DNA of 34,118 bases from Fidelibacterota bacterium (GTDB taxonomy: Bacteria; Pseudomonadota; Alphaproteobacteria; Rhodospirillales; Rhodospirillaceae): NCBI GenBank assembly GCA_947472795.1, contig CANJBL010000023.1:1-34118 (forward strand), in the 5' to 3' direction. The notes below the pieces were generated by a model. The model did no database searches, was not told where the DNA came from, and saw nothing but the letters and a program-made list of their open reading frames with translations. The position numbers were made by a program, and so were the translations under genes. This document shows positions 20,086 through 32,300 of the stretch, piece by piece. The number at the start of each line of letters is the position of its first letter. The stretch's first letter is position 1.

Positions 20086-20106
20086 TGCTTCTCTCTCGGG
20101 GTGCCC

Positions 20107-21036
20107 ATGTCCAGCATTGTTTCGATTTCCAATCTCACAAAAAAGTATTCATCGGGTTTGCAGGCGCTCTCGGGCGTCAGCCTCGATATCCGGCGTGGCG
20201 AGATCTTTGCGCTGCTGGGTCCGAACGGCGCGGGCAAGACCACGCTCATCAACATCATCTGCGGGATTGTCACTGGCAGTTCCGGCACTGTGACTGTTGA
20301 TAGTCATGATATCCGCACCGCCTATCGCGCCGCGCGCTCGAAGATCGGCCTCGTGCCGCAGGAGCTTTCGACCGATGCCTTCGTCAGTGTGCACGAAGCG
20401 GTCAGGTTTAGCCGCGGGCTCTTCGGCCGTCCGCCCAATGCTGACTATGTTGAGAAGACGCTGCGCGACCTGTCGCTCTGGGATAAGCGCGATTCCAAGA
20501 TTCGCACACTCTCAGGCGGCATGAAACGCCGTCTGATGATCGCCAAAGCGCTGTCGCACGAGCCGCAAATCCTGTTCCTGGACGAGCCTACAGCGGGGGT
20601 CGATGTGGAGCTGCGCCGCGACATGTGGGCGATGGTGCGCGGGCTGCGGGAACAAGGCGTTACCATCATTCTTACCACCCACTACATCGAAGAAGCCGAG
20701 GAAATGGCCGACCGTATTGGGGTGATCAACAAAGGCGCGTTGATCGTGGTGGAGGAGAAGAGCGTCTTGATGAAGAAGCTCGGCAAGAAGGAGCTGACAC
20801 TCAACTTGCAGGAGCCGCTCGCCCAAGTGCCGACAGGACTTGCCGCGTGGAATTTGACGCTCAAAGCCGATGGTCACGAGTTGCATTACACCTTCGATGC
20901 CAATGCCGAGAGCGGCAGTGTGTCGGAGTTGCTGCGCCGCCTTGGAGAACTGGGCATTGGTTTCAAGGACCTCAATACCTCGCAAAGCTCGCTGGAAGAA
21001 ATTTTCGTGAGCCTCGTGCATGGCGGAGGCCAGTAA
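20107..21036 (+). CDS. ABC-2 type exporter, ATP-binding subunit
   Basis: The 309-residue nucleotide-binding protein has Walker A GPNGAGKT (38-45), the Q-loop in GLVPQELS, the signature [15 protein letters not shown], Walker [13 protein letters not shown] and the H-loop histidine in [11 protein letters not shown]-terminal extension of about 80 residues ([10 protein letters not shown] ... LEEIFVSLV) is typical of the DrrA/CcmA/YadG group. It pairs with the permease whose ATG overlaps its TAA (TAATG). The exported substrate is unknown; YadGH-like pairs move drugs or lipids/polysaccharides. The ATG at 20107 has GGGG at proper spacing. A GTG two codons upstream (20101) is an alternative. Confidence 0.93.
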
Positions 21037-21797
21037 TGAACATCCACGGCATTGTTGCGATCTATAAGTTCGAATTGTCGCGGTTCATGCGTACGATCTG
21101 GCAGAGCCTGGCCACGCCCGTAATCACCACATCGCTGTACTTCGTGGTTTTCGGCTCGGCCATCGGCGGACGCATGCCGGAGATCAACGGCGTGCCGTAC
21201 GCGTCGTTCATCGTGCCTGGCCTCATGATGATGACGCTGTTCACGGAAAGCATTTTCAACGGCTCGTTCGGGATCTACTTCCCCAAGTTCACGGGAACCA
21301 TCTACGAGTTGTTGTCGGCCCCGATTTCGTCGTCTGAGGCGGTCTTGGCCTATGTGGGCGCGGCGGCGACCAAGTCGGTCATCCTGGGGCTCGTGATCCT
21401 GACGACAGCATCACTCTTTGTGCCGCTTCATATCGTGCACCCGTTTCTGATGGTGGCCTTCCTGCTGCTGATCGCGGCGACCTTCAGCCTGTTCGGTTTC
21501 ATCCTGGGCATTTGGGCTAACAGCTTCGAGCAGTTGAACGTTGTGCCGATGCTGGTGATGACGCCGCTGACCTTCCTGGGCGGCGCGTTCTATTCCCTCG
21601 AGATGCTGCCGCCCTTGTGGCGTACGGTGACGCTGTTCAATCCCGTGGTCTATATCATCAACTGTTTCCGCTGGAGCTTCTTTGGCCATTCGGATGTGAA
21701 CGTAGCCGCGAGCTTGGGGCTGACCCTGGCGTTCTTCTGCATATGCCTTTTGGTGGTGGCGACTATCTTCCGTACCGGCTATCGCCTTAAGAACTAG
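21036..21797 (+). CDS. ABC-2 type exporter, permease subunit
   Basis: The 253-residue inner-membrane protein has about six transmembrane helices and the ABC-2 family pattern: [25 protein letters not shown] (amphipathic start), [24 protein letters not shown], then [15 protein letters not shown] and the conserved [32 protein letters not shown]. It forms the dimeric channel for the ATPase encoded just before it, and GGAGG precedes its ATG. Its TAG shares the palindrome CTAG with the stop of the convergent fatty-acyl-AMP ligase gene, so the two transcription units meet with no space between them. Confidence 0.92.
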
Positions 21798-24622
21798 CGC
21801 GTCAGCAGATATTTCAGCAGCGTATCGCCGTTGTGACGTCCCATGTGGACGCCATCGAAGTAGTCATCGACATTGCCACCAAAATCCGCGGGCGTTGCAA
21901 AGCTATGCAGGCTGAGCCCGGGCGCCCCCAATTTGGCGATGTGATCGACGAGGGCCTGCTGCGTTTCGAAATAGGGGGTCTGTTCCTTTAGCCGCGCGAT
22001 CACGAGCGGATGAAGCGGATTGGTATAGACGGACATTTTGCACCCTGCATCGGCCGCAAGCGCCACCAACCTCTCGAAGTACTGAAGCCGCTGAGGATGC
22101 AGGTGTGTAAGGTCCTTGCAGGCCAGGAATTGCTGCGTCCATTTGGCTTCAAGGTCGGCCCCGGTGTAGTGCAGCGCAGGCATACTCTTCACGTCGCGGC
22201 GAAAGAGCTTGATGACATCGCCGTCGCGGGGATCGAACGCCAGGTCAATGTCCCACGCGCCATAACGCACCTGTGCCCGTTTGGCGATATCAGCGTTCTT
22301 TTCGCCGTCGCCTTCCAGAGTGAGTGAACCTTCGCCGCGCTGATCGACGGCATCAAGCAGCGAAAAGAGCGTGGGCGATTTCACCAGGCGCAGGTCGATA
22401 GGAAGCAACGGCGAAAATTGAATGGGATCGAGACCGACAATAAGACGCTCCACCGGCGTCCGGTTGGTTTGGAGGAAGAGCTTCACCATGCAATAGAGTT
22501 CTTCGGCGCGCACACTGGCGACGGTGAACTGGAAAGCCTTTAACCCGAACCGCGCGGCGTGCTTTGCGCGGACGAGGTAAGCGCGCGAGGAGCCGGCGAT
22601 CAAAGTATCGAAGTCGCGGGGTCCTTCCAGGACATAGTTGGCCTTCACCTGCCGATCGATCACCAGCTCGAACGCCGGGCGCGAAGGAGGGGCGTGTTCG
22701 CTGGACATCAGACGCACGATGGACGCAATGCTATCGAAGCAATCGTAGCCCACGTCCTCGGGCGCTGGGACGGGCTTTTTGAATGTGGTCTCCAGAGCCA
22801 GCAGCAGATTGGTGAGGGCGAGGGAGTCGATGATGCCAGCCGTGACCAAAGGATCGTCCGCGCCTTCAACCCACGTGCCGGACGCCTGGAAGATGCATTC
22901 ACGCACCAGATCGGACGGGTCGGACGGGTCTATCTTCCTAGCCGTGGCGGCTTGCTGGCGCAGTTCCAGGTAGCGGTCGCGGTTGCGCCCGCGCGCCATT
23001 TTTCCGGAAGTCGATTTCGCCAGCCATCCCGCCTCTACAATGCGGACGTCGGCAAGATTGATATCGAAGCGGTTGGTGACGGCCTGCGCGATCATCTGGG
23101 CGGTCTTGCGGGCGGTTATACCGGAGTCGGGTTTCAACTCGGCCAGCACCACCACGTTTTCCGTGCCTTTCGCATCATCCGTGATGCCGAAGGCAACGCA
23201 GCGCCCATCCGCGACGAAAAGCAGGTCACCGACTATGGCCTCAATATCCTGCGGATAGATGTTACGCCCCGCCGTGATGATGAGGTCTTTGATGCGGCCG
23301 GTGACAAAAAGCTCGCCGTCGCTGAGATAGCCCAAATCACCCGTGTGCAGGAGATTACCCGCTATTGCGCTGGCCGTGGCCTCGGGGTTTTTGAAATAGC
23401 CGCCCATGCGCGAGGGGCTGCGCACGGCGATTTCGCCTACGTGTTGGTCGGGGAGCGCTGCGCCGGAGTTATCCAGGATGACGACATCCGTACCGGAAAG
23501 TGCGTGACCGGAAGAAACCATGGCATGTGGGCCCGGTTTCACCGCAGCGCCAGTCGTAAGTGCGGCGCGGTCGATATGATCGACCTTCAAAGAATGACCA
23601 AAGCCGGCGGACGTTACGGCGAATGTGGTTTCCGCCATGGCGTACGACGCGGCCAGCGCTTCCGCTTTGAGTCCATAAGGAGCCAGTGCTTTGAGGAAGA
23701 TGTCATGGCTCGTCGCCGAAACAGGTTCGGAGCAATTCACAACACCGCGCACGCGAGAAAGATCCAAACCCGTCACATCACCCCGTTGAAGGGATTGCGC
23801 AAGGAAGTTGTACGCAAAATTTGGCAGCCAGCAGAGTGTGCCGCCATACCGCGAAAGAGCGTTCAGCAGCATCAAGGGGCTCTTCACCCAATCGAAGGGC
23901 GACATCACGGTGATTTGCGTGCCGGTGAGCAGAGGCATCATCAAGCAAGTGATGAGCCCCATGTCATGGTAGTAGGGCAGCCAGCTCACAATGTGATCGT
24001 CGTCGGCGAGCTTGATTTCGCGCGCGTAGGCATCCACCTGCGAGAGCAACTGCGCCTGCGAGATGGTCACGCCCTTCTTTGTGCCGGTTGTGCCTGAACT
24101 GTATTGAATAAACAGGATCGGGTTGTCGGTGTTGACAACCTGCGGCAACGTCTTGGGCACTTCGATGTCGTCGAAGCTGGCGACGCGCCGGCCAATGGAG
24201 GCGCTGAGATACGAGCAATAGGCGGGATCGCCGACGATGAGAGCCGGCTCGGCATTTTCGATCAGCGGCAGCAGGGTGCGTCCAAAATCGCTGACCGATA
24301 ATTTGGGAGAGGGGTGCGCGGAGACGATGGGAATGCGCCCCGTCAGCAAAGCGCCGGCTTCGGCAAAGAAGACGTCCCTGGGATTGGATAGAACGAAGAT
24401 GACCGTACCGCCCACGGGCACATTGTGCCGATCGAAGAGGCTGGCCGTGACCATTGCCTGTAGGAAGAAGTCGCGGTACGTGAACACCTCTTCGCGCATC
24501 TTGCCATCGATGATGCGCAAGAACGGCCTATCGCCGCGCGTGCGCAGCTGCGCAAGGATGCGCGCGGCAACACTATCGGGCGTGATCTGGGCGGAATTGG
24601 TCTGTGAGGTCAGGGGCGCCAT
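21794..24622 (-). CDS. Three-domain fatty-acyl-AMP ligase / acyl carrier / SGNH-like protein
   Basis: The 942 residues form three parts. Residues 1-555 are an acyl-adenylating enzyme: [14 protein letters not shown] (171-184), [12 protein letters not shown], the FAAL-type segment [17 protein letters not shown] (257-273), [29 protein letters not shown] and catalytic K541 in [15 protein letters not shown] is typical of FAALs, which load fatty acids on carriers rather than on CoA. Residues 570-640 are an acyl carrier domain with the phosphopantetheine serine S600 in GIIDSLAL. Residues 660-942 look like an SGNH-fold hydrolase/transferase: LIAGSSRAY (nucleophile candidate S678 or S679), YTNPLHP, and the end [10 protein letters not shown] with a D-x-x-H dyad (D923, H926). 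No signal peptide or membrane segment is seen, so it is cytosolic. It is the last gene of the fatty-acid operon, 68 bases after the thioesterase. The first two domains are sure; the third is a motif-level call. Confidence 0.85.
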
Positions 24623-24690: not shown

Positions 24691-25224
24691 CTAAACCTTC
24701 AATGCGGCGTCCAGGGCATCTTTCTTGGCCAGCGCGTCCGTAAACGGCGGTTTTTCGCCCGCGTAGCCCATGATGGCCAACAGTTTTTCAACGGGCAGGC
24801 GGCCCTCCTTGCCGATGAAAGTGACCTTCATCAGCGCAATGGAGGCGACTTCGGTACCCACTAAGATCTTCTGCTCCAGGTAGATCCAGCGATCGTCCCA
24901 GGACACGATGCGAGCTGTGACATCGAAGCGCTGAAAAACCCTGATGGGCCGACGAAAGCGGATGGTAAGCGAAGCCACGACAGGCCCAAGCCCAGCCGCG
25001 CGCAGGCGCGCCCAGGCACCGTTGCGGATCATGAAATCCACGCGCGAGAGGTCCATAAAGCTGGAATAGCGGCTGTTGGTCATGTGCATGTTGAGATCGA
25101 GATCCCAAGGCATGCAGCGAAAGAAGATGTGATTCTCACCCGCCATGTCGCGCCGGCCGGACACCGTGCGCGCGCCGAGATAGGCCGCCGCCATCATCCA
25201 CAGAAAGCGGAGAATGAGGTTCAT
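24691..25224 (-). CDS. Hotdog-fold acyl-CoA thioesterase, THEM6-like
   Basis: The 177-residue protein has a short hydrophobic N-terminus (NLILRFLWMMAAAYLGA), then a single hotdog (4HBT-type) domain. The order is FFRCMPWDLDLNMHMTNSRYSSFMDLSRVDFM (33-64, with the catalytic-region Asp residues and the N of the hotdog helix), then VASLTIRFRRPIRVFQRFDVTARIVSWDDRWIYLEQKI and the closing strand EVASIALMKVTFIGKEGR. Family members are poorly characterised but are taken to hydrolyse acyl-thioesters. Here it lies between acyl-CoA dehydrogenase and the acyl-AMP ligase, so it could release free acids from CoA for the ligase. It starts 21 bases after the dehydrogenase stop. Confidence 0.85.
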   Translation of the reverse strand: MNLILRFLWMMAAAYLGARTVSGRRDMAGENHIFFRCMPWDLDLNMHMTNSRYSSFMDLSRVDFMIRNGAWARLRAAGLGPVVASLTIRFRRPIRVFQRFDVTARIVSWDDRWIYLEQKILVGTEVASIALMKVTFIGKEGRLPVEKLLAIMGYAGEKPPFTDALAKKDALDAALKV

Positions 25225-25245: not shown

Positions 25246-27048
25246 TTAAGCCGCGACCGCCGCACTGAAGAGTTCGTCTTCCAAGTCCATGATGGTTTCG
25301 CCGCCGGCCATGATCGAGGACAGCAGCGCGCCGGTGTAGGGCATGATCTTGTGCATATAGAACTTGGCCGTCTTGACCTTGCCCTTGTAGAAGCCCGTCG
25401 GATCATCGCCCAGCTTCGAGAAAGCGAGTTTGGCCATCTTGGCCCACATGAAGCCGACGGAGACGTAAGAGAGCAATTTCAGGAGGTCGGAGGCACCAGC
25501 GCCCGCTTCGTTCGGGTTGCTCATGCCTTTCTGCGCGATCTGGCCCACGGCCTGTTGCAGGCGGCCAAAGCCTTTGGCCAGCTCCATAACAATCTCTTCC
25601 ATGGCCGGGTCGGCGGCGTTCTGCTCGATGAACTCCTGCACCGGATGGAAGAAGGCGCGCATGTAACGGCCGTAATGGGCCGTCATTTTGCGGCCCACCA
25701 GGTCGAGCGCCTGGATGCCGTTGGTGCCTTCGTAGATTTGCGTGATGCGGGCGTCGCGCACGAACTGCTCCATCCCGTGCTCGCGGATATAGCCGTGACC
25801 GCCGAAGATCTGCACACCGAGATTAGCGTTGTCGAAACCGATGTCGGTGCCGAAGGCTTTCACCACCGGCGTCAGGAATTGGATGAGATCGTCGTGTTCC
25901 GTGCGTTCGGCTTCGGTCGCCGCTTTTTCAGCTTTGTCCTGGCTCAAGGCTACCCACATGACCAGCGCACGCGTGCCTTCGGTCAGGGCTTTCATGGTCA
26001 TGAGGTTCTTGCGCACGTCGGGATGCACAATCAGCGGATCGGCGGGCTTCTCCGGTTGAACGGCGCCCTTCAGGCTGCGGCCCTGTAGGCGCTCACGGGC
26101 GTAAAGCAGCCCGCCTTGATAGGCGACTTCCGAAAGCCCGAGGCCCTGCACACCCACACCCAGACGCGCGGTGTTCATCATGGCGAACATGGCGCGCATG
26201 CCTTTGTTCTTCTCACCGACAAGCCAGCCTTTGGCATTGTCGAAGTTGATGACGCAGGTGGCCGAAGCTTTGATGCCCATCTTGTGCTCGATAGAGCCGC
26301 AGGACGCGCCGTTGCGCTGCCCCGGCGTGCCGTCGGCTTTGGGCAGGAACTTGGGGCAGATGAACAGGCTAATGCCCTTGATCCCTGCCGGAGAGTCAGG
26401 CGTGCGTGCCAAAACCAGATGCACGATGTTTTGCGTAAGGTCGTGCTCGCCGGCGGAGATGAAGATCTTGGTGCCTGTGAGATTGTAGCTGCCGTCCGCC
26501 TGAGGCTCGGCCTTGGTGCGCACGAGGCCGAGGTCGGTGCCGCACTGCGGCTCGGTGAGGCACATGGTGCCCGACCAAGTGCCGTCGGTGAACTTCGGCA
26601 AGTAGAGCTGCTTCTGCTCTTCGGTGCCGTAGAGCTTGAGCGCGTTATAGGCGCCGTGGGTCAGGCCCGGATACATGCCGAACGCCATGTTGGCGGAGCA
26701 AATCATCTCCTCGACCATCATGTTGATGGCTTTGGGCGCGCCCTGGCCGCCGTATTCCTGATCGGCGCCGAGGCCGGTCCAGCCGCCAGCGATGAACTGG
26801 TCATAGGCTTCCTTGAAGCCCTTGGGCGTGCGCACAACCCCATTCTCGAAGTGGCAACCTTCTTCGTCACCGGAGCGATTCAAGGGAAACAGCACTTCTT
26901 GGGACAACTTGGCCGCTTCTTCCAGGACCGCATCCACAACGTCTGGCGAGAAATCACCGTAGCCGGGAAGGTTTGCGAGGTCGTCGCCATTGAACAGCTC
27001 GCGGTAGACGAACTTCATATCGCGAAGTGGAGCGGTATAGACGGCCAT
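25246..27048 (-). CDS. Acyl-CoA dehydrogenase, long (600-aa) FadE/DmdC-like type
   Basis: The FAD enzyme makes the trans-2-enoyl-CoA in beta-oxidation. At 600 residues it belongs to the long type with an extra C-terminal domain. Landmarks are ELFNGDDLANLPGYG near the N-terminus, the FAD/substrate segment MCLTEPQCGTDLG (162-174), KIFISAGEHD (194-203), IEHKMGIKAS (253-262), and the catalytic base E440 in QIYEGTNGIQALDL. The helical C-terminal extension runs from about 460 and contains GAGASDLLKLLSYVSVGFMWAKMA. AAGGAG precedes the ATG at good spacing. It starts 11 bases after the FadB-like gene ends. Confidence 0.94.
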   Translation of the reverse strand: MAVYTAPLRDMKFVYRELFNGDDLANLPGYGDFSPDVVDAVLEEAAKLSQEVLFPLNRSGDEEGCHFENGVVRTPKGFKEAYDQFIAGGWTGLGADQEYGGQGAPKAINMMVEEMICSANMAFGMYPGLTHGAYNALKLYGTEEQKQLYLPKFTDGTWSGTMCLTEPQCGTDLGLVRTKAEPQADGSYNLTGTKIFISAGEHDLTQNIVHLVLARTPDSPAGIKGISLFICPKFLPKADGTPGQRNGASCGSIEHKMGIKASATCVINFDNAKGWLVGEKNKGMRAMFAMMNTARLGVGVQGLGLSEVAYQGGLLYARERLQGRSLKGAVQPEKPADPLIVHPDVRKNLMTMKALTEGTRALVMWVALSQDKAEKAATEAERTEHDDLIQFLTPVVKAFGTDIGFDNANLGVQIFGGHGYIREHGMEQFVRDARITQIYEGTNGIQALDLVGRKMTAHYGRYMRAFFHPVQEFIEQNAADPAMEEIVMELAKGFGRLQQAVGQIAQKGMSNPNEAGAGASDLLKLLSYVSVGFMWAKMAKLAFSKLGDDPTGFYKGKVKTAKFYMHKIMPYTGALLSSIMAGGETIMDLEDELFSAAVAA

Positions 27049-27059
27049 AGTGCGTCTCC

Positions 27060-29396
27060 TTAATTCCGAAGCGGTTTGCCGGTGTCGAGCATGACTTCCA
27101 TGCGCGCCAGCGTCGCCGGGTTACGCGCGAGTTCCAGGAAGGCCTGGCGCTCGAGCTTCAGGATGTCTTTCTCGCTGATGGTATCGACGGGATCGGTATT
27201 GCCGCCCGTCAGAACCTTAGCGAGGGCCAGAGAGACGACCATGTCGTGCGGCGTGACCTTGCCCTGCAACTGCATACCCTGCAGTGCCACCGTAAGGGCG
27301 GCTACGCCACCGGCGCCTGGTAGCGAGATCACTTGATCCTTGGGTGGCTGATAACCTTCGGCGAGCTTCAGCACTTTGGCTTTCGCATCGGCCAGCAGGC
27401 GGTCGCGGTTCATGGTGATCTGGTCGTCCTTGCGCAGGATGCCCATTTCCTTGGCCTCGAAGGCGGATTTAGAAACCTGCGCGGTGCCGATCATCTCGAA
27501 AGCTTTACCCGAAGCCGGGATAGGTCCCTTGGGCATCTTCGGATCGTTCTTGAAGCGCAGCAGCATCTCTTTGCAGCCCCCCCAGCCGGGGATCACGCCG
27601 ACGCCGACCTCGACGAGGCCGGTGTAGGTTTCCGCGTGCGCCTGGATGGAATCCGAGTGCAGAAGGATTTCGCACCCGCCGCCGAGCGCCATGCCGAGAG
27701 GTGCTGCGACAACGGGGAAGGGCGCTTGTTTCAGGGCGAGGTAGGTTTTCTGGCCTTCCTCGATCTGGCTTTCCAACTCTGCCCACACAGCGATATTGGC
27801 GGCGAACAGCACAAGGCCGATATTCGCGCCGACAGAGAAGTTCGGACCTTCGTTGTGAACAACGAGGCCTTTCCACTTCTTATCGCTCTTGATGAGCTTG
27901 ATAGTGTCCTTGTAGGCCGCCATGGTCAGTGGATCGAGGCTGTTGGCGCGCGACGTGAACTCGAAGCACAGCACGCCGTCGCCGATATCCCAGACCTTTG
28001 CCGACGGGTTCTTGAGGACGGGTTTGCCGGCGCGTTTGACATCGGAAAGTTTGAGTACGCCCGGCGCACGCACCACATCGGCATAGTCGCCCGTGGTGGT
28101 GAGGTATTGCAGCTTACCGCCTTCGGTGCGGTAGAAGCCGCCCTTTTCAGCCGCCAGCTTCAGCATCGGCGGAACGGGTTTCTTATCTGCCGCGAGTTTG
28201 TCGGCAAACCATTTGGCACCCATGTCGTCGATGATCTCGAATGGACCTTTGCCCCAACCGTAGCCGTCTTTCATGGCCTCATCGACGTCGGTGATGCGGT
28301 CGGCGATCTCAGGAACAAGGGCCGCGGTGTAGGTGAGGCCCTGACTGGCGAGTTTCCAGGCGTATTGACCGCCTTTATCGGGTGATTCCACCAGCGCTTT
28401 AAGGCCGCCTTTCTTGGAGGCGTTCAGGCTCGGCAGATCGGCCTTCACACTGGGCGCGTATTGCGCGGTGGTGAGGTTGAGGCTTTCCTTGATCTTCTGG
28501 CCGCCGTCTTTCTTCACGCGGTAGAAGCCGGACACGCCTTTGCGACCGATCCACTTATTCTGAAGCATGGTGGTGATGACGGGCGGCTCGGCCGAGATGC
28601 GCACGTAGTCGTCGGTCTTGGGCAGCAGCGACAGCATGGACTTGGTGATGTGGGGCATCAGGTCGAGGCCCACGAGGTCAATCAAGCCGAACACGCCGGT
28701 CTTGGGGATACCGAAGGGACGCGAAGCGATGGCGTCGGCTTCGTCCACGGTGAGGCCGAGGTTGATGGCCTCGATCACGCCGGTCTGCAGCCAGTACATG
28801 CCGATGCGGTTGCCGATGAATCCCGGTGTGTCCTTGCAGATGACCACACCCTTGCCCAGGCGCACGTCGCAGAAGTCGCGGATCATCGTGAGGTGTTCTT
28901 TTTTGGTTTTGGAAGAGGCGACCAATTCCAGCAGGCGCATATAGCGCGGCGGGTTGAAGAAGTGCGTGATCATGAAATCCTGCACCATGTCGGCCGGCAT
29001 GCCGGCTTCCAGCTCTTTCAGCGGAATGGTGGAGGTGTTGGAGGACACGACGGAGCCCTTCTTGCGGGTCTCCTCGACCTTCCTATAGAGGGTCTTCTTG
29101 ATCTCGAGATTTTCGATGACCGCTTCAATGATCCAGTCGCAATCGGCGAGCAGGTTCATATGATCTTCGGTGTTGCCGGTGGTGATCAGGCTGGCGTTGC
29201 GCTTGGACATGAAGGGCGCGGGGTCGGTCTTCAGCAGTTTAGCGACCGCGCCTTCCGCGATGGCATTCCGATTGGGATTGTCCTTGGGCACGATGTCCAG
29301 CAACACGCAGGGGACGCCCGCGTTGGTGATATGCGCGGCGATGCTGGCGCCCATGACGCCGGCACCAATCACCGCGGCTTTTTTGATTTCGGCCAT
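27060..29396 (-). CDS. 3-hydroxyacyl-CoA dehydrogenase / enoyl-CoA hydratase (FadB-like)
   Basis: The 778-residue bifunctional enzyme covers the hydration and second oxidation steps of beta-oxidation. The domain order is dehydrogenase first and hydratase last, the reverse of E. coli FadB. The NAD fold starts at once (GAGVMGASIA, 11-20), with ITHFFNPPRYMRLLELV (catalytic His-Glu pair). A 3HCDH C-terminal region holds GFIGNRIGMYWLQTGVIEAI and a second copy follows around TDVDEAMKDGYGWGKGPFE. The crotonase part, from about 490, has VHNEGPNFSVGANIG and PLGMALGGGCEILLHSD. I start at the ATG at 29396 (AGGGGGC upstream); the longer frame runs into the thiolase gene. It is 14 bases from the thiolase stop. 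Confidence 0.94.
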   Translation of the reverse strand: MAEIKKAAVIGAGVMGASIAAHITNAGVPCVLLDIVPKDNPNRNAIAEGAVAKLLKTDPAPFMSKRNASLITTGNTEDHMNLLADCDWIIEAVIENLEIKKTLYRKVEETRKKGSVVSSNTSTIPLKELEAGMPADMVQDFMITHFFNPPRYMRLLELVASSKTKKEHLTMIRDFCDVRLGKGVVICKDTPGFIGNRIGMYWLQTGVIEAINLGLTVDEADAIASRPFGIPKTGVFGLIDLVGLDLMPHITKSMLSLLPKTDDYVRISAEPPVITTMLQNKWIGRKGVSGFYRVKKDGGQKIKESLNLTTAQYAPSVKADLPSLNASKKGGLKALVESPDKGGQYAWKLASQGLTYTAALVPEIADRITDVDEAMKDGYGWGKGPFEIIDDMGAKWFADKLAADKKPVPPMLKLAAEKGGFYRTEGGKLQYLTTTGDYADVVRAPGVLKLSDVKRAGKPVLKNPSAKVWDIGDGVLCFEFTSRANSLDPLTMAAYKDTIKLIKSDKKWKGLVVHNEGPNFSVGANIGLVLFAANIAVWAELESQIEEGQKTYLALKQAPFPVVAAPLGMALGGGCEILLHSDSIQAHAETYTGLVEVGVGVIPGWGGCKEMLLRFKNDPKMPKGPIPASGKAFEMIGTAQVSKSAFEAKEMGILRKDDQITMNRDRLLADAKAKVLKLAEGYQPPKDQVISLPGAGGVAALTVALQGMQLQGKVTPHDMVVSLALAKVLTGGNTDPVDTISEKDILKLERQAFLELARNPATLARMEVMLDTGKPLRN

Positions 29397-29410
29397 GTGT
29401 GCATGCCCCC

Positions 29411-30547
29411 TTACATGGCTTCCAGAACGGTGGCGATGCCTTGTCCGCCGCCGATGCACATGGTGGAGAGCGCGTATTTCTTCTTCTCGCGTTGAAGCAG
29501 AGCAGCGGCCTTGCCGGTGATGCGTCCGCCGGATGCGCCCAGCGGGTGACCGATGGCGATGGCGCCGCCGTCGAGATTGGTCTTGGTGAGATCGATGCCC
29601 AGTTCCTGAATGACCGAGAGGGACTGAGCAGCGAAGGCTTCGTTGACCTCGAAGATGTCGATCTGGTTGAGCTTCAATCCCGCACGCGCGAGCGCTTTCT
29701 GTGTGGCTGGCACGGGCCCGATGCCCATGATCTCCGGTGCGCAGCCGGCGACGGCGATGGAGAGGATGCGGGCCAGCGGCTTGATGCCTTTTTTCTTGGC
29801 GTACTCTTCGCTGCAGACGAGCACGGCGGAGGCGCCATCGGTGAGCGGCGAGGACGTGCCGGCGGTGACGGAGCCGGTTTCCTTGAAGACCGGCTTCAGG
29901 CCGGCGAGCGCTTCCAGCGTGCTGTCCGCACGGATGCAGCCGTCGGCATCGATCATGCCGCCTTCGCCCTTCACGGGAATGATCTCGTCCTTGAACTTGC
30001 CGGCGGCTTGCGCGGCGGCGGCGCGCTTATGGCTTTCCACCGCGAAGGCTTCCTGCTTGGCGCGCGCGATCTGATACTTGTCAGCCAGGTTTTCGGCGGT
30101 CTCGCCCATGCCGATGTAAGCCTTGCTGCCAGCGCTGACGAGGCCGGGGTTCGGCATGGGGTTGAAGCCGCCCATGGGAATGCGGCTCATGCTTTCCACA
30201 CCGGCGCAGATGAAGGCATCGCCCGCACCCATCTTGATGGAGCCTGCCGCCTGGTGGATGGATTGCATGGAGGAGCCGCAGAAGCGGTTCACCGTTACGC
30301 CCGCAACGCTCACGGGCAGGCCGGAGAGGAACGCGGCGATGCGCCCGATGTTGAAGCCTTGCTCACCTTCGGGGAAGGCGCAACCCATGATGATGTCTTC
30401 GATGTCGGCGGGGTCGAGCTTGGTTTTATCAACGAGGCCCTTGATGACGGCGCCAATCATGTCGTCGGGCCGCGTCTTGCGCAGGGCGCCCTTGTTGGCC
30501 AGATGGAAAGCGGAGCGGACATATCCCGCGATGACAACGTTGCTCAT
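29411..30547 (-). CDS. fadA: Acetyl-CoA C-acyltransferase (thiolase)
   Basis: The 378-residue thiolase closes the beta-oxidation cycle by cleaving 3-ketoacyl-CoA. The nucleophile is C90 in NRFCGSSMQS, with the NEAF motif at 302-305 (EVNEAFAAQS), H334 in AIAIGHPLGASG and the second active-site cysteine C364 in CIGGGQG. All catalytic residues are present. The length is slightly short but normal for this group. The ATG at 30547 is preceded by AGGGGGAC. It is the second gene of the operon, 34 bases after the acyl-CoA ligase and directly before its FadB-like partner; the two may form a complex. Confidence 0.94.
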   Translation of the reverse strand: MSNVVIAGYVRSAFHLANKGALRKTRPDDMIGAVIKGLVDKTKLDPADIEDIIMGCAFPEGEQGFNIGRIAAFLSGLPVSVAGVTVNRFCGSSMQSIHQAAGSIKMGAGDAFICAGVESMSRIPMGGFNPMPNPGLVSAGSKAYIGMGETAENLADKYQIARAKQEAFAVESHKRAAAAQAAGKFKDEIIPVKGEGGMIDADGCIRADSTLEALAGLKPVFKETGSVTAGTSSPLTDGASAVLVCSEEYAKKKGIKPLARILSIAVAGCAPEIMGIGPVPATQKALARAGLKLNQIDIFEVNEAFAAQSLSVIQELGIDLTKTNLDGGAIAIGHPLGASGGRITGKAAALLQREKKKYALSTMCIGGGQGIATVLEAM

Positions 30548-30581
30548 GGCTGCGTCCCCCTAATGGTGGTCCGGTAAGTGG

Positions 30582-32300
30582 TTAAGTTGGTTTGGATGAA
30601 GCAACTTCCTGCTTCAGTTCCTTCTTGGATAGTTTTCCGATGAGTGATTTGGGCAGCTGGTCGCGGAACTCGTATTGCGCGGGCTGTTCGATTTTGGAGA
30701 CCTTGTCCTTCATAAATGCGCGGATCTCGGCCTCGGTCAGCGTCATGCCGGGGCGCACCTTGATGTAGGCTTTGGGCGCCTCGCCGCGATAAGCATCGGG
30801 AATGCCGATGACGGTGGTCTCTTCCACGGCCGGGTGCTGATAAAGCGCCTCTTCCAGCACGCGCGGGTAAATCTTGTAGCCCGAGGCGTTGATCATGTCC
30901 TTGATGCGGTCGACGATGAAGACATAACCCTCTTCATCGATGTAACCCACGTCGCCGGTGTGCAGCGCGCCGTTCTTCAAGACATCCGCGGTCTCCTGGG
31001 GGCGTCCCCAATAGCCCTTCATGACTTGCGGACCCTTGATGCAGATCTCGCCTTTTTCGCCGATGCCGAGCACGCGGCCGTCGTCCAATGCGCGGATCTC
31101 GATAATTGTACCGGGCATGGGTAGGCCGACGGAGCCGGGTTTGTTTACGCCCTCGGTGGGATTGGTGCAGGCGACAGGCGAGCTTTCGGAAAGGCCGTAG
31201 CCTTCCACCACCACGCACTTGGTGCGCGCCTCAAAAGCCCTCTTCACTTCGACCGGTAAAGGTGCTCCGCCCGAGATGCAGAGCTTGATGGAGGTGAGGT
31301 CGTATTTGTCGACATCGGGCGAATTGTTGATGGCGGTGTAAATGGTGGGCACCGCTGGAAACAGCGTCGGCTTCTTCTTGTCGATGTTCTTCAAACAGTC
31401 TTTCAGATCGAAGCGCGGCATCATGATGATCTCGGCGCCGTACTCCATGCCCACCAGCAGAATCACGGTCATGGCGAAGACATGGAAGAAGGGCAGGGCG
31501 GCGAGGAAGCGTTCTTTGCCGGGTTGTGGATTGTTGAACCACATGGAGACCTGGCGCGCGTTGGCCGTGCAGTTGGCGTGCGTGAGCATGGCGGCCTTGG
31601 GCACGCCGGTGGTGCCGCCGGTGTACTGAAGCACAGCCACATCTTCCTTGGGGTCGATGGTGACGGGCTCGGGTTCGCCGTCGTTGTCGATAAGGTCATC
31701 CCACCAGATCTGGCGGTCGTCCTCCTCCACATCGGCCACGGTCGAACGTTTGAAGAGATTGAACATCACCGCCGTTCCAAAAGGCAGAGCTTCGGCCATG
31801 GAACAGACGATGAGTTTCTTCAGCGGCGAATTGTTCAGGAGCGTGCGCGCCTTGGGATACATGGCGGTGAGATCCATGGTCACCAGGTACTCGGCCCCGG
31901 AATCCTTGACCATGTTCTCCAGCTCGCGCGCGGCATAAAGCGGGTTCATGTTCACGACCGTGCCGCCGGCCATCAGGATCCCGAAGAAGGAGGCGATGTA
32001 GTAGGGCGTGTTGGGCAGCAGCAGCGCGACGCGCGTACCCTTGGTGACACCGATCTTCTGGAAGCCCTCGGCCGCCTTCATGGCAAGCTCTAGTGTCTCG
32101 GCGTAGGACCACTGCTTGCCGAGGAACTCCATACAGGGGTGGCTGGGGAATCTGCCGGCAGCCTTTTCCAGCAGCGAGAAAACGGTAGTGGCGGGAAGGG
32201 CGGCGTCCCACGGAGCGAAGGGCGGATAGTTCCGCAGCCAGGGGTAAGCCTGGGCGCCGACCGTTTCGCGTGCGGACTTTTGTACGTCGGTTACCACCAT
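30582..32300 (-). CDS. fadD: Long-chain fatty acid-CoA ligase
   Basis: The 572-residue ANL-superfamily enzyme activates fatty acids with ATP and CoA at the start of beta-oxidation. The core motifs are YTGGTTGVPKAAMLTH (near 215), EGYGLSESSPVACTNP, LHTGDVGYIDEEGYVFIVDRIKDMINASGYKIYP (the A7/A8 region with the FadD linker), and the catalytic lysine in SLIGKLSKKELK near the C-terminus. It lacks the FAAL-type PNFAY segment seen in the last gene of the operon, so the operon has both a CoA-type and an AMP/carrier-type activating enzyme. AAGGGGAC lies upstream of the ATG at 32300. It is the first gene of the six-gene unit. Confidence 0.94.
   Translation of the reverse strand: MVVTDVQKSARETVGAQAYPWLRNYPPFAPWDAALPATTVFSLLEKAAGRFPSHPCMEFLGKQWSYAETLELAMKAAEGFQKIGVTKGTRVALLLPNTPYYIASFFGILMAGGTVVNMNPLYAARELENMVKDSGAEYLVTMDLTAMYPKARTLLNNSPLKKLIVCSMAEALPFGTAVMFNLFKRSTVADVEEDDRQIWWDDLIDNDGEPEPVTIDPKEDVAVLQYTGGTTGVPKAAMLTHANCTANARQVSMWFNNPQPGKERFLAALPFFHVFAMTVILLVGMEYGAEIIMMPRFDLKDCLKNIDKKKPTLFPAVPTIYTAINNSPDVDKYDLTSIKLCISGGAPLPVEVKRAFEARTKCVVVEGYGLSESSPVACTNPTEGVNKPGSVGLPMPGTIIEIRALDDGRVLGIGEKGEICIKGPQVMKGYWGRPQETADVLKNGALHTGDVGYIDEEGYVFIVDRIKDMINASGYKIYPRVLEEALYQHPAVEETTVIGIPDAYRGEAPKAYIKVRPGMTLTEAEIRAFMKDKVSKIEQPAQYEFRDQLPKSLIGKLSKKELKQEVASSKPT

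Follow-up and report, generated by a model that had tools for sequence, protein, structure and literature searches.

What does a protein do in which a fatty acyl-AMP ligase (FAAL), an acyl carrier domain and an SGNH domain are joined in one chain? The question is raised by a gene in contig CANJBL010000023.1, analysed here over its whole length of 34,118 nucleotides (the window), which encodes such a fusion of 942 residues. According to passages of a 2025 review, the main known role of FAALs is to supply polyketide and peptide synthases (PMC11837247), and the SGNH transferases that partner MBOAT proteins are described, in part of another paper, as membrane-bound finishers of cell-envelope polymers (PMC12148441). 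Judged from sequence comparisons and structure models, the fusion is, on balance, probably a cytosolic O-acyltransferase, which would load itself and work without a membrane partner.

A single gene for a FAAL, an acyl carrier and an SGNH domain

The gene and the parts of its product are as follows.

21794..24622, minus strand: whole fusion gene, 942 residues, FAAL - carrier - SGNH, with an ATG start and full-length homologues
22964..24547, minus strand: FAAL adenylation domain, about residues 26-553, with K541 and a FAAL-type insertion (assigned by Pfam, PDB relatives and the insertion)
22703..22930, minus strand: acyl carrier domain, about residues 565-640 (PP-binding match under the cut-off; S600 invariant)
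22823..22825, minus strand: codon of S600, predicted phosphopantetheine site (DSL motif)
21797..22660, minus strand: DltD-like SGNH domain, residues 655-942 (model, Foldseek, hhalign to MBOAT-neighbour proteins)
22583..22594, minus strand: GSSR, residues 677-680, block I with the predicted nucleophile S679 (GSS invariant in 6/6)
21845..21856, minus strand: DGVH, residues 923-926, block V with the predicted catalytic D923 and H926 (both invariant in 6/6)

A sequence-only reading of the window had proposed these three domains in this order, which is borne out by domain matches, a structure model and homologues; its motif positions were exact (STSGK at 537 with K541, DSLALT at 599 with S600, GSSR at 677 and DGVH at 923). 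We regard the three-domain architecture and the SGNH fold as nearly certain. The architecture is not a product of chance, because full-length homologues are present in six other genomes, one of them with an internal stop.

The AMP-binding family of Pfam matches residues 26-410 (E 2.8e-41). In a PDB sequence search 15 of the first 18 rows were FAALs, led by 3kxw, several of them assigned by entry title or name; the remaining three were adenylation domains of synthases (6ulx, 6ulw and 4r0m), and CoA ligases ranked later. The top NCBIfam model is PRK07768, which is named as a CoA ligase (316 of 572 bits), followed by FAAL and polyketide synthase (PKS)/nonribosomal peptide synthetase (NRPS) models, all of them under their cut-offs. 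An insertion after the motif YAMAE, which we take to be the published FAAL-specific insertion, is common to the fusion and the other FAAL of the genome (L002) and is missing from the FadD protein of the window. The closest solved relatives and this insertion identify the N-terminal part as a predicted FAAL.

For the carrier, the PP-binding model reached E 0.0035 on residues 550-654, which at 18.0 bits lies under the cut-off of 20.8. It passes the cut-off in two of the three homologues scanned (L056 and L057), and no match is listed for the third (L059). S600 of the DSL motif is invariant in all eight aligned proteins. The fusion had also been described as free of membrane and signal segments. 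Indeed, its KD19 profile has a maximum of 0.26 in the first 45 residues and a protein-wide maximum of 1.87 at residue 592, within the carrier, and therefore neither a signal nor a membrane segment is apparent.

The C-terminal part is predicted to adopt the SGNH fold of DltD

No Pfam family, DltD (PF04914) included, matched residues 655-942 (288 residues) at E<=1, and PDB sequence searches with this part gave no meaningful match (best E 0.11 and 0.16). For residues 641-942, AlphaFold2 run on six aligned sequences gave a model with a pLDDT of 81.8 and a pTM of 0.84. Foldseek against the PDB found 10 chains at E<=0.001, every one of them DltD (3bma, 6pfx, 6o93, 7dxm), after which rhamnogalacturonan acetylesterase, PatB and other SGNH esterases were listed. 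A fold search of BFVD gave no match at E 0.001, the best being uncultured phage proteins at 1.2e-3. Structure prediction and Foldseek comparison thus assign the C-terminal part to the SGNH fold with DltD as the nearest solved structure, and the parallel to DltA-DltC-DltD that had been drawn from the sequence holds in this respect. On the model, the likeness to DltD is one of fold.

In the model GSSR ends the first strand and DGVH directly precedes the last helix, which are the places expected for blocks I and V. Among the six intact fusions G677, S678 and S679 as well as D923 and H926 are invariant, a count that leaves out L020 (interrupted), L019, L021 and L023. The fourth residue of GSSR did not hold up as part of the motif: R680 is replaced by T in two of the six, and on this alignment it appears not to be essential.

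Free-standing relatives are membrane-anchored and accompany MBOAT genes

Free-standing homologues of the SGNH domain, mostly of 300-400 residues, were found at 11 loci (nine from the order and class searches, one from the plasmid search and one from genome_contigs). An MBOAT gene adjoins them or lies within one gene at 10 of these loci, and the eleventh, L049, starts near a contig end. In contrast, no MBOAT gene was seen at any of the 10 fused-domain loci, that of the window among them. Three proteins, one of which is the L015 neighbour itself, went into the MBOAT model. At the level of genomes, MBOAT (PF03062) is present in one of nine with the fused domain, namely G012, and the window's own genome lacks it.

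The two kinds of protein also differ at their N-termini. All nine free-standing proteins tested have an N-terminal hydrophobic segment (KD19 2.2-2.7), and none of seven fusions has one in the first 45 residues (KD19 0.26-0.62). Alignment of the six fused domains with nine of the eleven free-standing proteins by hhalign gave a probability of 99.95 (E 1.3e-38), which makes kinship of the fused SGNH domain with the MBOAT-partner proteins very likely by sequence; the nine proteins used for this comparison and for the anchor test did not include L037 and L051. Serine and histidine are kept in 9/9 free-standing relatives, the D of block V not in all. Two free-standing relatives weakly match DUF1574 (PF07611; E 0.013 and 0.0031, both under the cut-off), described in part of one paper as an SGNH family of no known activity (PMC9487903), which the window domain does not match at E<=1.

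In MBOAT-SGNH systems, as outlined in sections of PMC12148441, the acyl group crosses the membrane by way of the MBOAT protein and is then handed on by the serine of the SGNH partner. The SGNH domain of the fusion is homologous to proteins encoded with MBOAT genes and in this resembles pairs such as PatA-PatB (treated in the same source), but it lacks both the MBOAT neighbour and the anchor, and its donor is presumably its own carrier. The simplest reading seems to be that in the fusions the carrier takes the role of the donor and the reaction is shifted to the cytosol, so that a transferase of the MBOAT-partner kind has acquired an acyl source of its own.

Different ends on the FAAL-carrier unit

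Searching the genus for FAAL plus carrier brought up a second kind of fusion, in which the end is GDSL-like and carries GNS and D-x-A-H (G011 C6 and G001 C57; Lipase_GDSL models stayed under their cut-offs).

L061:7717-10683 and L062:6814-9783, both minus strand: second kind of FAAL-carrier-SGNH, with a GDSL-like end

No relation between the DltD-like and the GDSL-like ends was detected by hhalign (probability 0.6), with thin alignments of six and three rows that leave a distant relation possible. In the class, FAAL-carrier proteins with a hexapeptide-like end are encoded in G397, G511 and G603 (L077, L078 and L079), the reading of G603 being disturbed near its end; the Pfam family Hexapep matches the sole one scanned, G511, with E 7.8e-7 and 29.0 bits against a cut-off of 27. 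Hexapeptide enzymes of the kind at the end of this unit are transferases. In G397 the copy follows, at a distance of about 1.5 kb, genes for a DegT aminotransferase, an epimerase, a GNAT protein, NeuB and an asparagine-synthase-like protein (cluster L084:1009-10989), which suggests a sugar acceptor in that genome. At L094:6682-9843, minus strand, G115 has a FAAL gene followed after 12 bases by a separate carrier-domain gene (23.0 bits against 20.8), in whose product the SGNH-like stretches GDS, NFGEID and DETH were recognised by eye.

Beside the L062 copy lies a gene for a free-standing paralogue of the GDSL-like end, in which the nucleophile position is G instead of S.

A possible reaction sequence

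Taken with the family assignments, the domain order suggests a reaction in four steps. The FAAL domain would use ATP to convert a free carboxylic acid into acyl-AMP, and the phosphopantetheine on S600 would receive the acyl group. S679 of the DltD-like SGNH domain, aided by H926 and D923, would then become an acyl-enzyme, as fold and conservation lead us to expect, and the acyl group might finally pass to a hydroxyl acceptor that is produced in the cytosol or accessible there, e.g. a sugar precursor, a glycan or a glycosylated protein. The FAAL-carrier unit would thereby stand in for MBOAT as the acyl source, giving a Dlt-like chain minus its membrane step. The Dlt pathway (DltA, DltC, DltB and DltD, which D-alanylate lipoteichoic acid) shares the order of tasks, i.e. 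adenylation, carrier and SGNH transferase. In the fusion, however, these are on one chain, the ligase is a FAAL and not a D-alanine ligase, no MBOAT gene is nearby, an anchor is missing and the DltD family of Pfam is not matched at E<=1.

Whether the acyl group goes to an acceptor or to water had been left open in the sequence-only reading. The acceptor is now the better bet, and we consider transfer about twice as likely as hydrolysis because the free-standing relatives adjoin MBOAT genes and because other FAAL-carrier units have a hexapeptide transferase-like domain at their end; an end of this kind on a comparable unit makes transfer more likely for the SGNH proteins as well.

Several observations weigh against a self-loading transferase. 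The matches to DltD are modest (E 4.8e-5 to 7.6e-4, TM by query 0.43-0.51, rmsd 11.6-13.7, identity 9-12%), and many SGNH proteins are hydrolases. The AlphaFold2 model of the full-length protein, for which the adenylation and peptidyl carrier (A-PCP) part of McyG was the best PDB match, followed by FAALs, reached a pTM of 0.50 and therefore provides no reliable arrangement of the domains. MBOAT is also rare in the genus among genomes without the DltD-like domain (1 of the 10 tested, out of 14); absence at genome level is therefore weak evidence, and the contrast between loci keeps its weight. The fused loci vary in length and some end at contig ends, so that an MBOAT gene farther off in the region may have escaped notice. 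Finally, no constant neighbour across the fusion loci points to an acceptor, and the presence of NeuB does not track that of the fusion.

FAALs occur stand-alone, as didomain proteins or fused to synthases, according to passages of the 2025 review, in which "GDSL" and "esterase" at the start of a word are absent (PMC11837247). We found no FAAL-carrier-SGNH/GDSL fusion described in the open-licence PMC literature searched, a scope outside which most subscription papers fall. If the proposed activity is correct, a soluble chain uniting FAAL and SGNH transferase would represent a new acylation route, and the SGNH transfer step would become open to study in a single purified protein without a membrane complex.

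We give an even chance to a broader proposal, namely that the fusions belong to a modular family of soluble self-loading acyltransferases. In this family a FAAL-carrier unit would be combined with at least three kinds of terminal domain (MBOAT-partner SGNH, GDSL-like SGNH and hexapeptide transferase) and would attach fatty-acid-derived groups to cytosolic glycans or proteins straight from the free fatty acid, without CoA, MBOAT or a separate carrier; the branch in the window would be a cell-surface enzyme turned cytosolic. Interchangeable ends of this kind would mean that one acyl-loading unit has been re-used in nature.

Genomic neighbourhoods and alternative roles

The fusion gene of the window is flanked by the following genes.

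24691..25224, minus strand: 4HBT thioesterase, upstream neighbour (Pfam 4HBT_2, E 4.4e-23)
25246..32300, minus strand: upstream beta-oxidation genes for acyl-CoA dehydrogenase, a FadB-like protein, thiolase and FadD
20101..21797, plus strand: convergent ABC-2 type exporter, ATPase and membrane protein, whose stop overlaps the stop of the fusion

In the direction of transcription the order is FadD, thiolase, FadB-like, acyl-CoA dehydrogenase, 4HBT and then the fusion. The alternative that survives best, possible though rather doubtful, draws on this order. The SGNH domain would be a TesA-type thioesterase that hydrolyses the carrier-bound acyl group, either as proofreading or as release after a change made on the carrier, in the window by the neighbouring dehydrogenase and hydratase. 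Thioesterase I indeed belongs among the SGNH enzymes (PMC9487903, in the portion cited here), and the fusion comes after thioesterase and beta-oxidation genes. However, loading and hydrolysis on one chain would make a futile cycle unless the acyl group is changed in between, and the gene order is not kept. Of 19 genomes of the genus 18 encode the dehydrogenase (>=86% identity) and the remaining one, G017, has no closer relative of it than 50%; the stretches around this gene in other genomes (L063-L070, two of them <6 kb) contain the adjoining 4HBT gene in 6/8 cases and the fusion in 0/8. G009 and G016 have the 4HBT and ABC-2 genes end to end without the fusion, like an empty site, and in G012 a damaged copy sits between dehydrogenase and thioesterase.

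The fusions of other genomes sit among different genes, which likewise argues against the thioesterase reading. In G011 the fusion comes after FliK, FlgD and FlgE-type genes. In G019 and G253 it has a HIT-like gene, recognised by eye, on one side and on the other a related gene, which in G253 is FAD-binding; G019 also has his-like genes (by eye) farther away. It follows two TPR genes in G437, where it overlaps an adenosine deaminase gene by four bases, and an M24 peptidase gene in G663. The fusion gene has changed places. Together with the MBOAT neighbours of the free-standing relatives and the hexapeptide transferase-like end of a FAAL-carrier relative, these findings speak against a thioesterase.

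It is improbable that the fusion is an ordinary FAAL-carrier starter unit for a polyketide or peptide synthase, with the SGNH domain as a docking or structural part. FAAL-acyl carrier protein (ACP) didomain proteins that feed a PKS are known (NocH and HapA), and in these as in AmbG the FAAL is directly followed by the carrier, as in the fusion (PMC11837247, in the relevant passages). Those proteins feed a synthase, whereas here a transferase-like SGNH domain is on the same chain, and no PKS or NRPS is encoded among the 18 open reading frames of the window that were scanned, the fusion included. Moreover, GSS, D and H are invariant in the six intact fusions, and the SGNH domain is under purifying selection in the single pair tested. 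For this pair, the window and G011, dN/dS was 0.18 (FAAL), 0.28 (carrier) and 0.18 (SGNH), at a dS of 1.3-1.9, which is near saturation.

A similarly small chance is left for the view that a membrane partner is required after all, with a membrane protein other than MBOAT, e.g. the convergent ABC exporter, supplying acyl group or acceptor. DltD and PatB, the nearest studied relatives encountered, act with membrane partners (PMC12148441, in the sections on these proteins), and the exporter genes adjoin the fusion gene. But they are on the opposite strand, they lie beside the thioesterase gene in G009 and G016, where the fusion is missing, and no membrane segment is apparent in the fusion itself. 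That the gene is a metagenome assembly artefact or is decaying is very improbable, since, although most assemblies are drafts, the G012 copies have an internal stop or a large deletion and G018 encodes an odd TPR chimera, the window copy is intact, the architecture recurs at 37-63% identity, twice in other families of the class, and dN/dS is well under 1 in the pair tested.

Two leads towards an acceptor were rejected. One was NeuB, taken as a sign that a sugar acceptor is shared; of the 20 genomes examined 15 have it, some of them carrying the fusion and others not, and the domain-bearing G012 and G018 lack it, so that it fails as a predictor. Flagellin came into question through the flagellar neighbours in G011 and a TPR-SGNH chimera in G018; the TPR part of FlmG binds flagellin (PMC7591256, as stated in part of that paper). 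The chimera, at L019:2805-4979, is an in-frame join between a truncated TPR-GT9 protein and the DltD-like domain. Its likeness to the TPR-GT9 protein neighbouring the fusion in G011 stops at residue 430 of 620, within the glycosyltransferase part, and because of this we take the chimera for a deletion or an assembly error and did not count it as support.

Distribution of the fusion

The C-terminal domain was detected in 6 of 99 relatives, in 10 of 317 genomes of the order and in 9 of 385 drawn from the class, the genome of the window being counted each time. The profile used for finding relatives (A2) already contained the Deinococcus MBOAT-neighbour protein. Full FAAL-carrier-SGNH proteins are encoded in seven genomes, i.e. 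that of the window, G011, G012 (with the internal stop), G019, G253, G663 and G437; the identity figures given above compare the window protein with the other intact ones. Further finds of the fused domain are a second copy in G012, from which a large internal deletion has removed the carrier and GSSR, the TPR chimera of G018 and a G015 contig that starts inside the domain. In genome_contigs 57 stretches matched the pattern and six were confirmed, of which only L058 was new. The plasmid search yielded one record, from Deinococcus aetherius, and no relatives were found in viral_contigs or phages.

A single origin of the DltD-like fusions was also considered, a question that a tree of 18 FAAL rows does not resolve: it implies two changes, a single grouping is not rejected (AU p 0.195), and one branch is very long. 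L055 and L060 are titled Candidatus Marinimicrobia and a genome of the same family (L056) is titled Alphaproteobacteria, so that one of the labels is probably wrong.

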